Source of the DNA: Bacteroidota bacterium
Lineage (GTDB): Bacteria; Bacteroidota; Bacteroidia; Flavobacteriales; Flavobacteriaceae
Direction of reading: 5' to 3'
DNA: 64,000 nucleotides
Assembly: GCA_947447375.1 (NCBI GenBank)
Contig: CANFJB010000003.1
Span: 62,001 to 126,000 of the forward strand
In this document: in pieces, positions 46,217 to 62,223 of the stretch
How the letters are laid out: the number at the start of each line of letters is the position of its first letter
Numbering within the stretch: position 1 is the stretch's first letter
Position numbers and translations under genes: made by a program
Notes under the pieces: model-generated
What the model saw: only the letters and a program-made list of their open reading frames with translations
Databases searched by the model: none
What the model was told of the DNA's origin: nothing

Positions 46217-46298
46217 GCGGATATGGTGAAATTGGTAGACATGCCAGACTTAGGATCTGGTGCCGCAAGGCGTGTAGGTTCGAGTCCTATTATCCGCA
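46217..46298 (+). tRNA. tRNA-Leu (anticodon UAG)
   Basis: The 82-base gene folds as a class II tRNA. The acceptor arms GCGGATA and TATCCGC pair perfectly, the anticodon arm CCAGA/TCTGG encloses CTTAGGA (anticodon TAG), a long variable arm TGCCGCAAGGCGT follows, and the T arm contains GGTTCGAGTCC. The CCA end is not encoded. A terminator hairpin follows and the BlaI operator region lies about 110 bases downstream. Confidence 0.97.
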
Positions 46299-46307
46299 CT
46301 TAAAAAC

Positions 46308-46458: not shown

Positions 46459-46474
46459 TTCTACACTTGTAGAA
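46459..46474 (+). promoter_or_regulatory. BlaI-type operator 1
   Basis: TTCTACACTTGTAGAA is a perfect dyad with a 2-base centre. TACA/TGTA half-sites are what BlaI/MecI repressors bind. It contains the TTG used as a -33 element. Confidence 0.8.
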
Positions 46475-46496
46475 TTAAAATTTTATTCTACATTTG
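46467..46496 (+). promoter_or_regulatory. Predicted promoter of the blaI-M56 unit
   Basis: TTG at 46467-46469 and TACATTTG (TAnnTTTG) at 46489-46496 are 19 bases apart, and each lies inside one of the two operators. Bound repressor should therefore block polymerase. Confidence 0.65.
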
Positions 46497-46501
46497 TAGA
46501 A
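46486..46501 (+). promoter_or_regulatory. BlaI-type operator 2
   Basis: TTCTACATTTGTAGAA is a second perfect dyad, 27 bases downstream of operator 1, containing the -7 box. A degenerate third copy (TTCTA, six bases, TAGAG) lies at 46506-46521, just before the ATG at 46524. Confidence 0.8.
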
Positions 46502-46523
46502 GTAATTCTAAAAACGTAGAGCA

Positions 46524-46895
46524 ATGCAATTATCAAATTCAGAAGAACAGTTAATGGAACATTTGTGGAAACTTGAAAAAGCTTTTATGAAAGATTTATT
46601 GGAAGCCTATCCAAAACCAAAACCTGCAACAACAACCGTAGCTACTTTATTAAAAAGAATGATTGACAAAAATTTTGTAGCCTACAATGAATTTGGCAAT
46701 TCAAGAGAATATTTTCCGCTTGTTAAAAAAGAAGATTATTTCTCCAAACAAATTAACGTATTGATAAAGAATTTTTTTAATGATTCTACGTCACAATTTG
46801 CCTCGTTCTTTACTACTTCAACTAATTTAACGCAAAATGAATTGGAAGAATTAAAAAAAATCATTGATGTTGAACTTCAAAAAAAGAAAAAATGA
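46524..46895 (+). CDS. BlaI/MecI/CopY-family transcriptional repressor
   Basis: The 123-residue protein has the N-terminal winged-helix domain of this family: LSNSEEQLMEHLWKLEKAFMKDL, then TTTVATLLKRMIDKNFVAYNEFG for recognition helix and wing (each quoted in part). A C-terminal helical dimerisation region with the usual loop (FFNDSTSQFASFF) follows. In relatives, cleavage by the cognate M56 protease releases it from DNA. Its stop codon overlaps the start of the M56 gene (ATGA), and two perfect TACA/TGTA dyads lie just upstream, so self-repression of the two-gene unit is likely. Confidence 0.92.
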   Translation: MQLSNSEEQLMEHLWKLEKAFMKDLLEAYPKPKPATTTVATLLKRMIDKNFVAYNEFGNSREYFPLVKKEDYFSKQINVLIKNFFNDSTSQFASFFTTSTNLTQNELEELKKIIDVELQKKKK

Positions 46896-48904
46896 ACGAC
46901 TTTTTAATAAAATCAACTATTATTTTAACGATTTTACTTGCCTTCTATCATTTAGTATTAGGGAGAGAAAAGATACATCAATTCAATCGATTTTATCTAT
47001 TAATCTCAATTGTAATTTCATTTATAATTCCATTTTTAACTTTTGAAATTATAAAAGTTATTCCTGTATTTGTAAATCTCGAACCTATAAAAAGCGTAGC
47101 AATTCCAACAGATATTAATGAAAATGAAATTAGGGAAACCGTAGCACCTATAGTTGAATCCATAAATTACATACCATATATATTGTGGAGTTTGTATGCT
47201 TTAATTACTTTGATATTACTGGGAAGATTTACGAAAAACGTTTTTGAATTAATTTCTAAAACTAAATCCAATCCCATTGTAAAATATAAAACCGCAAAAT
47301 TAGTTTTAGTTGATGAAAAAGTACTTCCTCATACTTTTTTGAATTACATTTTTATCAATTTTGACGATTACAATAGTAGAAATATTGAAGATGAATTATT
47401 CACACACGAATTGGTTCATGTAATACAAAAACACTCTTTAGATATTTTGTTTATTGAGTTTTTAAAAGTAATATTTTGGTTTAATCCAATTTTCATTTTC
47501 TACAAAAAAGCAATTCAACTTAATCACGAATTTCTTGCTGATGATGAAATTGTAAGAACCTATAATAATGTTCCTTTTTATCAAAATTTACTTTTACAAA
47601 AAGGGAATGACAACCAAACAATTTACTTAGCTAGTAATTTAAATTATTTAGTAACTAAAAAACGATTGATTATGATGACCAAAAGCACTTCACAAAGAAT
47701 AGCGTTATTAAAAATAGCATCCATTTTACCAATTCTAGCTGGATTAATTTACTTTTTCTGTTTTGAAGTTGTGGCACAACAAAAAGTAATAAATACCAAT
47801 TCAAAAAGTAACAGTTCTGAATTAAATGACAAGGATAAAATTAGAGATAGTTATTACAGAGGTGTTTATGTGAAAATTATTGATGAAAAAAATAACAAAA
47901 ATATTTCAACGCAATACGAAAATCTTTCATTAGAAGATCGAAGAAAATATTTTTATTACATTCCGGAAATGATGATTGAAAATGAAATTCCTGAGCCATT
48001 ATTTGAAAAAATGAAAGTAAAAAACATGGCTGTTTGGATTAATGGAAAAGTTAGAACCAAAGAAGAAATAAAAAAATATAAAAGATTAGATTTTAGTTAT
48101 TACTCTACAAGTTTTATTCATAAAAATGCTAGGTCTAAACGATTTCCACAAGAGTATCAATATTCGCTTTATACTAAAAAGTTTTTTGATGAAAATTTAA
48201 AAAACAGTCATTTGCACTTCAGCGGGGATACAATTAAAATTTGCTCAGTTTCCTATAAAACTGCTTTGAAAAATGTAGTTAAACCAAGAACGAAAGCAGA
48301 TACAATTGTTTGGTATACCAAAGGGAAGGACGGTTATAATTTATATATAAATGAAGATAATAAAAACAAAACAATAGTAATTGATGCCGGACACGGCGGA
48401 TCAGATTTTGGAGCGTCAAAAGAAGGATTGACAGAGAAATCTCTTACAGAAATTATATCAAATAAAATTCAAAATAGGAATGAGAATGAAGATGTTAAAA
48501 TTCATTTTACCAGAACTAACGATACATTTATTGATTTAAGTGATAGAGCTAAAATTGTAAATTCTTATCAACCGGATTTAGCTATTTCGTTACATTTTAA
48601 TTTTAATAAAAATATTGAAGCAAACGGCTTTGAAATTTACGTTTCCGAAAGTTCGCCAACTTCGGAAAAATCAAGAGAATTAGCCAATCAATTGGCAGCA
48701 GTTATTTCTAATGCTACACCATTAATAAATAGAGGTGTTAAAGTTGCACCATTTTATATATTGAAAAAATCGGAATGCCCAACAATAGTGGTTGAATTAG
48801 GGTTTCTTTCTAATGAAAATGACAGAAATTATGTGAATAGCGACATGGGGCAAACAGAAATTGCTAATGCAATTTTAAATTTTGTTTCTGGTTTAAAAAA
48901 ATAG
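46892..48904 (+). CDS. M56 (BlaR1/MecR1-like) membrane protease fused to an N-acetylmuramoyl-L-alanine amidase domain
   Basis: The 670-residue protein has three N-terminal membrane helices, a cytosolic zinc protease domain with HELVH at residues 172-176 and NHEFLADDE further on, and a fourth helix near 270-290. This gives the BlaR1 topology with the C-terminus in the periplasm. Residues about 300-490 are a linker region seen in flavobacterial M56 proteins (TKEEIKKYKRLDF). Residues 493-670 are an Amidase_3 domain with H501 in DAGHGG, E515 and H568 as zinc ligands and E635 in VELGFLSN as the catalytic Glu. The penicillin-binding sensor domain of BlaR1 is absent. It probably cleaves BlaI on a wall signal and itself acts on peptidoglycan; both are inferred. 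Confidence 0.9.
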   Translation: MNDFLIKSTIILTILLAFYHLVLGREKIHQFNRFYLLISIVISFIIPFLTFEIIKVIPVFVNLEPIKSVAIPTDINENEIRETVAPIVESINYIPYILWSLYALITLILLGRFTKNVFELISKTKSNPIVKYKTAKLVLVDEKVLPHTFLNYIFINFDDYNSRNIEDELFTHELVHVIQKHSLDILFIEFLKVIFWFNPIFIFYKKAIQLNHEFLADDEIVRTYNNVPFYQNLLLQKGNDNQTIYLASNLNYLVTKKRLIMMTKSTSQRIALLKIASILPILAGLIYFFCFEVVAQQKVINTNSKSNSSELNDKDKIRDSYYRGVYVKIIDEKNNKNISTQYENLSLEDRRKYFYYIPEMMIENEIPEPLFEKMKVKNMAVWINGKVRTKEEIKKYKRLDFSYYSTSFIHKNARSKRFPQEYQYSLYTKKFFDENLKNSHLHFSGDTIKICSVSYKTALKNVVKPRTKADTIVWYTKGKDGYNLYINEDNKNKTIVIDAGHGGSDFGASKEGLTEKSLTEIISNKIQNRNENEDVKIHFTRTNDTFIDLSDRAKIVNSYQPDLAISLHFNFNKNIEANGFEIYVSESSPTSEKSRELANQLAAVISNATPLINRGVKVAPFYILKKSECPTIVVELGFLSNENDRNYVNSDMGQTEIANAILNFVSGLKK

Positions 48905-49120: not shown

Positions 49121-50635
<1,515 letters not shown>

Positions 50636-61314: not shown

Positions 61315-62223
61315 CTAAGCGTTTTTCAAATTTATAATTTCTTGCTCGGTTAACTTTCTCCAGTTGCCTCTTGGCAAATTTTTCTTCGTTAATCCAGCAA
61401 ATGCAACGCGGTCAATTCGCAAAACATCATAATTGAAATGTTCAAAAATAGAACGTACCACTTTTACATTCGAAGAGCGTAATTTTAATCCTACTTCACT
61501 TTTTGCTTCTCCTTCAATGTAGCTCACATCTTCAACAAAAACGCGGTGCCCATCTAAAACTAAGCCTTTATTTATCTTTTCTAAATCTTCGTATTTCAAA
61601 TTTTTATCCAATGAAACTTGGTATATTTTTGAAGATTTTTGATTGGGTAAAGTGAATTTTCGAATCATATCGGTGTCATTTGTAAACAATAACAAACCGG
61701 TTGTATTCTTATCCATTCTTCCAACAGCGCCAATTTTTGCCGTGGTAGAACCTTTAACCAACTCAAGTACATTTCTATATTCCTGACCTTCGTCTAAAGC
61801 TGTTGTAAAATTTTTAGGCTTGTTCAATAAAATGTATTCTTTTTTTTCTGGAGTCAATACATTTCCGTCAAAATTCACAATATCGCCTGGTTTTACAAGG
61901 TAACCCATTTCAATAACTGGAACGCCGTTCACTTTTACATTCCCAGATTGGATATAAATATCGGCATCACGTCTTGAACAAACTCCAGAATTGGAAATGT
62001 ATTTATTCAAACGAATTTCGTCTTTTGCTTTTTGACGTTTAGGTGCTTGATTTGGTTTTTTCTCTACTTTTTCAGCAGCAAGTTCAGCTACTTTAGCATT
62101 AACTTTTACTTTTTTAGGACCTTGTGCCCGTTTTTGCATCGCAGGTTTTGGCTTGTTAGAATTTGGTCTTGAACTATTTGTTCTTGAACCACTTCTTTTA
62201 TTATTGCCTTCCTTGTTATTCAT
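61315..62223 (-). CDS. RsuA/RluB-type pseudouridine synthase
   Basis: The 302-residue protein has a basic, disordered N-terminal extension of about 75 residues (Ser/Asn/Arg/Lys rich), an S4 RNA-binding domain (RLNKYISNSGVCSRRDAD) and a catalytic domain with GRMDKNTTGLLLFTND containing the catalytic Asp. It isomerises a uridine in rRNA, probably 23S as RluB does. The extension is longer than in E. coli relatives. Confidence 0.9.
   Translation of the reverse strand: MNNKEGNNKRSGSRTNSSRPNSNKPKPAMQKRAQGPKKVKVNAKVAELAAEKVEKKPNQAPKRQKAKDEIRLNKYISNSGVCSRRDADIYIQSGNVKVNGVPVIEMGYLVKPGDIVNFDGNVLTPEKKEYILLNKPKNFTTALDEGQEYRNVLELVKGSTTAKIGAVGRMDKNTTGLLLFTNDTDMIRKFTLPNQKSSKIYQVSLDKNLKYEDLEKINKGLVLDGHRVFVEDVSYIEGEAKSEVGLKLRSSNVKVVRSIFEHFNYDVLRIDRVAFAGLTKKNLPRGNWRKLTEQEIINLKNA

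Follow-up and report, generated by a model that had tools for sequence, protein, structure and literature searches.

BlaI/BlaR1-type systems are known from inducible β-lactam resistance, and the described systems closest to the locus reported here are BlaR1-BlaI and MecR1-MecI of staphylococci and Bacillus licheniformis. The locus lies in a 64,000-nucleotide stretch of DNA (the window: contig CANFJB010000003.1, forward-strand positions 62,001 to 126,000) from a Flavobacterium (Flavobacteriaceae, Bacteroidota), and consists of a blaI-type repressor gene whose end overlaps by ATGA the start of a gene encoding an M56 protease, a linker and a C-terminal Amidase_3 domain in one protein. We consider it moderately probable that this pair constitutes a self-contained, autoregulated circuit of the BlaI/BlaR1 type, the direct output of which would be a membrane-tethered amidase. 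In the BlaR1 template, as presented in PMC9834060, a cytoplasmic protease is combined with an outer sensor and BlaI is cut directly between Asn101 and Phe102, the P1' Phe of BlaI being almost invariant. The locus resembles these systems in that the repressor gene adjoins that of the M56 protease, and in its predicted BlaR1 fold, its predicted TACAnnTGTA operators and a Phe at the aligned cleavage position. It differs from them in that the periplasmic domain is a predicted zinc amidase rather than a class D-like penicillin-binding sensor, that no β-lactamase or mecA-type gene was seen beside the pair among the reading frames of the window, and that sites outside reading frames (at most one mismatch, host genome) were located only at its own operon.

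Other described proteins share parts of this arrangement. Bacteroidota M56 proteins with TonB_C or other tails possess an orthologous blaI, the M56 module, the linker (in long forms) and, in 10/11 cases, paired operators, but carry TonB_C or an unassigned C-terminus where the amidase stands here. In the LytH-ActH system of Staphylococcus aureus, a membrane-tethered amidase has a multi-helix membrane partner; the present amidase has an Amidase_3 fold near that of LytH, whereas here amidase and partner form a single polypeptide, the partner being an M56 protease that has a repressor of its own. Among unfused amidases, the closest relatives in the tree are the stand-alone secreted Amidase_3 enzymes of Flavobacteriaceae (~200 aa); these lack a membrane protease part, and blaI and M56 genes were seen to adjoin them in one genome only (G758), within the short flanks that were read. 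PMC9662197 lists M56 among the rare extra catalytic domains of M23 proteins and states that a role of it in wall cleavage is yet to be demonstrated; such proteins likewise combine a peptidoglycan hydrolase with M56, although the hydrolase is M23 and not an amidase. M56 in combination with class D domains is mentioned in PMC9045261. No description of an M56-Amidase_3 protein was found among the open-access papers listed (titles and beginnings of abstracts), subscription papers and preprints lying outside this scope, in agreement with the sequence-only reading, to which no such description was known.

The identity of the C-terminus, as proposed from the sequence alone, was confirmed by Pfam, which placed Amidase_3 at residues 495-665 (E 3.1e-49) and covered nearly the full profile (positions 1-172 of 174). 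Residues H501, E515, H568 and E635 align with the active-site positions, which we take, from known Amidase_3 enzymes, to be the zinc ligands and the catalytic Glu. All 30 distinct fusions identified in this study retain the zinc ligands, and all but one retain the catalytic Glu (29/30); the four residues are all intact in 33/35 unfused amidases at the fetched loci. The ratio of non-synonymous to synonymous substitutions (dN/dS, Nei-Gojobori, nine pairs) was 0.10-0.22 for the amidase and 0.13-0.27 for the M56 part, values that are rough, as several dS are near 1; the amidase domain thus appears to be under purifying selection, and activity on peptidoglycan is predicted from the conserved site. 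In a full-length structural model, usable in the amidase part only (mean predicted local distance difference test score (pLDDT) 55.4), this part was matched by Foldseek to 4rn7 (E 1.9e-14) and then to LytH of the LytH-ActH complex (7tj4; E 1.5e-13). At E ≤1, Pfam returned Amidase_3, Peptidase_M56 and a weak eCIS_core match only, with no class D-like penicillin-binding domain; the fusion protein may work like a penicillin receptor, yet is not one.

The N-terminal part matched Peptidase_M56 at residues 169-237 (34.1 bits, cut-off 31). Hydropathy analysis gave four clear membrane segments (residues 5-23, 36-54, 93-111 and 270-288), consistent with the four helices proposed earlier, together with two weaker hydrophobic stretches, one following HELVH (185-203) and one continuing the second segment (53-71). 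The HExxH motif is located between the third and the last clear segments, and it is intact along with the third-ligand motif in 30/30 fusions. A low-confidence model of residues 1-490 (20 sequences, mean pLDDT 62.8), which aligns to BlaR1 residues 1-296, was used for structural comparison. Five BlaR1 cryo-EM entries led the Foldseek matches (E 3.3e-6 to 9.7e-4), the next match being at E 0.9. VIA-align gave Z 11.1-12.3 for the same five entries (root-mean-square deviation 3.8-6.1, 194-214 residues aligned, model residues 1-254 versus BlaR1 1-296), followed by the zinc metalloprotease ZMPSTE24 with Z 4.5. The distance to the following entries and the sequence motif favour a true BlaR1 match, and the first ~250 residues are supported as a BlaR1-like M56 module by predicted fold. 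The Pfam match, the residues conserved in 30/30 fusions and the fold ranking all point to an M56 metalloprotease module of the BlaR1/MecR1 type (HExxH plus third Glu), as the sequence-only reading had assumed. That reading had also asked for a structure of the linker, for which no fold could be named from the 1-490 model and no Pfam match was obtained; a TonB plug-like domain is a possible assignment, with a probability of only 17.3 in a profile comparison.

The blaI product belongs to the Penicillinase_R family and matches MecI (E 2.6e-6). The 87 BlaI rows and the 91 distinct upstream regions considered below were taken from every fetched locus, with or without a fusion, and are phylogenetically related; of these BlaI rows, 82 have Phe at the aligned P1' position. 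Ahead of blaI are two predicted operators, O1 and O2, spaced 27 bp start to start; position 46459, with which the finding had been taken to begin, is the first base of the perfect palindrome O1. At no more than two mismatches the 16-bp motif is expected 0.38 times in the window and was found three times, O1 and O2 being the two exact occurrences. Their TACAnnTGTA core is that reported for BlaI, MecI and CopY in PMC7253601, and the TAHHTTTG -7 element is used as defined in Flavobacterium johnsoniae (PMC6847099). Distal O1 provides a TTG 19 bp before TACATTTG of proximal O2, and the predicted operators coincide with the Bacteroidota -33/-7 elements of the operon's own promoter. This arrangement recurs among relatives: the core is present in 44/91 blaI upstream regions, and the proximal core, with TT at its centre and hence forming TAnnTTTG, reads so in 44/44. 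A TTG lies 17-23 bp before the proximal core in 40 of these 44, and the cores are 27 bp apart in 21 of the 23 regions holding two or more. In 20/28 fusions, an operator core is found no more than 1 kb ahead of the fused gene.

The search for further targets covered the host genome (G000; 2.39 Mb, 25 contigs, 95.7% complete), in which the 16-bp motif occurs five times at no more than one mismatch, twice at the operon and three times inside reading frames. The latter, rejected as further BlaI targets, are an exact site (C6:76880) within a 467-aa hydrolase-like frame and one-mismatch sites within an ftsZ-like frame and a 241-aa frame. No intergenic site besides the operon was found at this threshold, weaker cores not having been sought genome-wide. 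Each of 12 relatives with the fusion has the exact 14-bp motif at the fused gene or at most 2 kb before it; this position accounts for 17 of 22 sites, with 4 in reading frames and 1 intergenic, while a reversed control pattern was found 0 times in each. The only direct BlaI target found, as predicted from motif occurrence, is the operon itself, in support of the self-feedback loop proposed earlier. As BlaI and the amidase are the only direct product found, the circuit would set the dose of a tethered wall hydrolase; this output is predicted from the distribution of operators, and the activity of the enzyme from its conserved site.

At least 30 distinct M56-Amidase_3 proteins were identified; besides Flavobacterium, they occur in five further genera of the Flavobacteriaceae and in two families that do not belong to the order. 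The genus sample contained the fusion in at least 14/398 Flavobacterium genomes (7 by a long-form profile and 7 more by a short-form profile), and the family sample (397 genomes) in at least the genome of the window and six others, of five other genera. At least one further Flavobacterium (G1369), besides G553, was obtained from the order sample (395 genomes), and at least five genomes of two families outside the order, besides G553 known from the family, from the phylum-wide sample (395 genomes). All these counts are minimum values, drawn from overlapping samples with 3-8 first-look candidates scored per genome and ~150 rows listed; in the family sample, the eight hits with open frames of >400 aa were fetched, representing six fusions and two helix-turn-helix (HTH) proteins. 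A named genome scan yielded 18 related loci. Eleven have TonB_C-like or other tails; the other seven are fusions from separate public assemblies, one of which (L020) belongs to a record whose title does not mark it as a metagenome-assembled genome. Pfam was run on 11/30 fusions, the others being assigned by profiles built from the family itself. Directly upstream and on the same strand, blaI was present in 28/28 fusions with a visible flank, the remaining two (L005 and L114) lying at contig edges. An assembly artefact, named at the outset as a possible refutation, is rejected on the grounds of 30 distinct fusions, their separate assemblies and the linkage to blaI, which also bears out the proposed coupling.

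The periplasmic part of these proteins was found to be variable. Long forms have a linker of ~190 aa before the amidase, whereas in most short forms the amidase follows the fourth transmembrane segment (TM4) almost directly; L017 and L093 are intermediate, with short linkers. Between fusions L011 and L038, identity is 85% in M56 and 91% in the amidase, versus 38% in the linker, and the long fusions L006 and L039 bear an amidase of the short-form clade in the amidase tree. A single origin of the fusion was rejected, since the M56 tree requires nine changes of the fusion label, at least five of them forced by starred branches, and fused domains in the amidase tree are spread over several clades beside secreted amidases; as both trees were built by a quick method and carry long-branch warnings, it is uncertain how many origins there were. 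The tails of 69 non-amidase M56 relatives, chosen as near relatives and not at random (78 M56 rows minus two truncated copies of the window protein, L023 and L024, and seven that were either partial or the second copy of a tandem), comprised 37 TonB_C, 2 M23, 3 ExbD and 4 MORN_2 matches (E 0.001), in accordance with the earlier remark that M56 proteins of Bacteroidetes often carry TonB-like tails; a motif search for M23 gave L070 only, versus the two profile matches. The 11 orthologues with other tails all have an overlapping blaI (11/11), and the eleventh, which lacks visible paired operators, lies at a contig edge. On the repressor-protease pair, the periplasmic part is thus swapped repeatedly between TonB_C, M23 and amidase, as judged from domain assignments.

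Several architectures bear on the role of the amidase. In G758 (L099:4740-7053, -), blaI is followed by an M56-M23 gene, the M23 motif of which looks complete, and then by a secreted Amidase_3 that is encoded separately; this suggests that the system also has an unfused, or otherwise alternative, form. The Flavobacterium genome G271 (L167:871-3289, -) has blaI followed by M56-Amidase_3-M23, with a Pfam M56 score of 30.4, just under the cut-off of 31, and an M23 part that looks degenerate by eye; its M56 clusters with sequences from a family that lies outside the order, and the locus may therefore stem from transfer or contamination. Among the outgroup fusions scanned, the amidase is followed by Plug and TonB_C (L147), Plug (L149) or TonB_C (L150). 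Finally, G622 and G715 encode an HTH_3 domain joined through one hydrophobic segment (by eye) to a complete Amidase_3 (L100:4706-5956, -, 416 aa; L101:4450-5682, -, 410 aa), with ~100 residues between segment and amidase; these are possibly one-step membrane regulators with a wall amidase.

The coordinates of the locus are given in Table 1; those stated in the sequence-only reading, as well as the overlap, HELVH and the four amidase residues, were correct according to reading frames, Pfam and alignment.

Table 1. Features of the blaI-M56-Amidase_3 locus (positions in the window)
Feature	Position	Strand	Basis or remark
Operator O1	46459..46474	+	Perfect palindrome TTCTACACTTGTAGAA; TTG 46467-46469 in -33 position
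Operator O2	46486..46501	+	Perfect palindrome TTCTACATTTGTAGAA; includes TACATTTG (46489-46496), a perfect TAHHTTTG -7 element
blaI-type repressor gene, 123 aa	46524..46895	+	Pfam Penicillinase_R E 6.8e-27
Phe96 codon of blaI	46809-46811	+	Aligns with P1' Phe of the BlaI/MecI cleavage site (MecI alignment)
M56-linker-Amidase_3 fusion gene, 670 aa	46892..48904	+	Open reading frame and Pfam
BlaR1-like membrane metalloprotease module (predicted), residues 1-296	46892..47779	+	Pfam M56 and model match to BlaR1 cryo-EM
HELVH codons, residues 172-176 of the fusion protein	47405-47419	+	
Periplasmic linker domain (predicted), residues 297-490	47780..48361	+	No Pfam match
Amidase_3 domain, residues 491-670	48362..48901	+	Pfam E 3.1e-49; H501, E515, H568, E635

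The pair is flanked by tRNA-Leu (46217-46299) on one side and atpD (49124-50635) on the other, the latter beginning 219 bp past the fusion gene; the relatives read have different genes downstream, so that the atpD neighbourhood seems accidental. Elsewhere in the host genome there is one further M56 match and one further Amidase_3 match. A second blaI-M56 pair is encoded on contig 14 (L029:4740-7376, -; 119 and 748 aa), and the TACAnnTGTA core is absent from the surrounding 12 kb that were read. A small gene for a lipoprotein-like product with MORN-like repeats (by eye) separates operator and blaI in some relatives (L006:1907-2323, L021:1635-2051, L020:3066-3518, L162:3351-3773, L163:626-1048 and L165:3293-3718); it is likely a further operon member by its position, and the operon can therefore extend beyond two genes. 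Two M56 genes in tandem after a single blaI were also observed (L020:5001-7898, L161, L162 and L165), the first with an amidase tail and the second with another tail. A separate clade of small Amidase_3 genes (L079-L090 and L092) is found mostly beside genes that by eye resemble conjugative-transposon transfer genes.

In the circuit that we infer, which extends to repression, topology, signal, BlaI cleavage and amidase activity, BlaI dimers would bind O1 and O2, over the -33/-7 boxes, and shut the operon's own promoter, as the operator anatomy suggests. The M56 protein would span the inner membrane as BlaR1 does, with its protease in the cytoplasm and its amidase membrane-tethered in the periplasm. 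A change in the wall would be felt via the periplasmic part, through the linker, through the amidase as it engages peptidoglycan, or through both, and would activate the protease, which would then cut BlaI before Phe96 and open the promoter. The product would be more BlaI and more membrane-bound amidase, the dose of this tethered wall hydrolase being set by the circuit.

A number of observations weigh against this interpretation. BlaI binding, BlaI cleavage, amidase activity and inducer are all predicted, at the level of sequence and models. Both models are of low confidence (mean pLDDT 55.4 and 62.8), and the alignment tool warns that Z below about 13 can be reached by chance in unrelated helical folds. 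The ten-base TACAnnTGTA core alone is insufficient to predict binding, according to PMC7253601, and bare cores do occur inside reading frames elsewhere. Moreover, 47/91 blaI upstream regions have no core within the stretch read, and 8/28 fusions have none within 1 kb, including L147-L149 and L151 of the outgroup. In one fusion (L037, G251) the catalytic Glu is replaced by Asp. TonB_C and other tails are found on orthologues that come with the same blaI and operators, showing that the chassis does not need an amidase.

The autoregulated circuit leaves open which part of the periplasmic region senses, and the alternatives considered below overlap with it, so that the likelihoods assigned to them need not add up to one. 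The amidase may be cargo only, with the M56 module or the linker as the sensor and the fusion merely anchoring the enzyme and bringing autoregulation; we regard this as possible, if somewhat doubtful. The unfused G758 operon and the exchange of C-termini among the 69 non-amidase relatives favour such an effector role, which is also consistent with the conserved active site and with the lack of another intergenic operator at ≤1 mismatch in the host genome. Most short fusions, however, have hardly any residues between TM4 and amidase (L093 and L017 having short linkers), leaving few other periplasmic parts to sense, and HTH-amidase proteins exist. The latter, together with the position of the amidase after TM4, where BlaR1 carries its sensor, favour the converse, namely that the amidase is a peptidoglycan-binding receptor comparable to the penicillin-binding domain of BlaR1, with slow or incidental catalysis; the HTH_3-segment-amidase architecture of G622 and G715 would suit an input domain. 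A role as sensor only is nevertheless unlikely, as zinc ligands in 30/30 and the catalytic Glu in 29/30 fusions argue for retained catalysis, and as a pure sensor would regulate only itself, the operon being the sole target found in the host genome. The sequence-only reading, in which the amidase is both sensor and effector and the signal would be wall damage or muropeptides, is partly supported: the amidase as a necessary sensor is weakened by the 11 other-tailed orthologues and by G758, while the amidase as a sensor is favoured by its position, mostly directly after TM4 in short forms, and by the two HTH-amidase genomes. Both roles have comparative support, and their combination may be regarded as the boldest interpretation.

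Two further alternatives concern the direction and the chemistry of control. ActH is a polytopic membrane protein, and in a reversed scheme modelled on LytH-ActH the polytopic M56 module would mainly activate or spatially guide the amidase, with BlaI cleavage being secondary. The amidase part has LytH, whose structure was determined together with the activator ActH, as its second structural match, but the scheme needs neither the protease motif (30/30) nor the blaI linkage (28/28), and we consider it quite improbable. Still more remote is a chemical link, in which stem peptides released by the amidase would be processed, imported and inactivate BlaI directly, as with the γ-D-Glu-diamino acid dipeptide of Bacillus licheniformis. 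According to PMC3305447, this wall-derived dipeptide binds BlaI/MecI and destabilises the DNA complex, cell wall hydrolases being proposed as feeders; direct cleavage of BlaI by BlaR1 without further components, described in PMC9834060, speaks against it.

Returning to the autoregulated circuit, the same chassis whose established role is inducible β-lactam resistance here carries a wall hydrolase, which, with no other target found in the host genome, points to wall homeostasis and not drug resistance. With the gene pair, both the monitoring of peptidoglycan by Bacteroidota and the dosing of a dangerous autolysin by the cell become directly testable. That tails are exchanged repeatedly while the repressor-protease pair stays constant suggests a receptor function for many uncharacterised M56 proteins, with roles that could be read from their tails. 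More speculatively, and with considerable doubt, a class of hydrolase-armed receptors may be widespread in Bacteroidota, comprising BlaR1-type membrane proteases for which cutting the wall is the means of probing it; their periplasmic enzyme (amidase, M23 endopeptidase or a tandem of these) would be sensor and actuator at once, and its own engagement with or turnover of peptidoglycan would drive BlaI cleavage and reset the enzyme dose independently of antibiotics.

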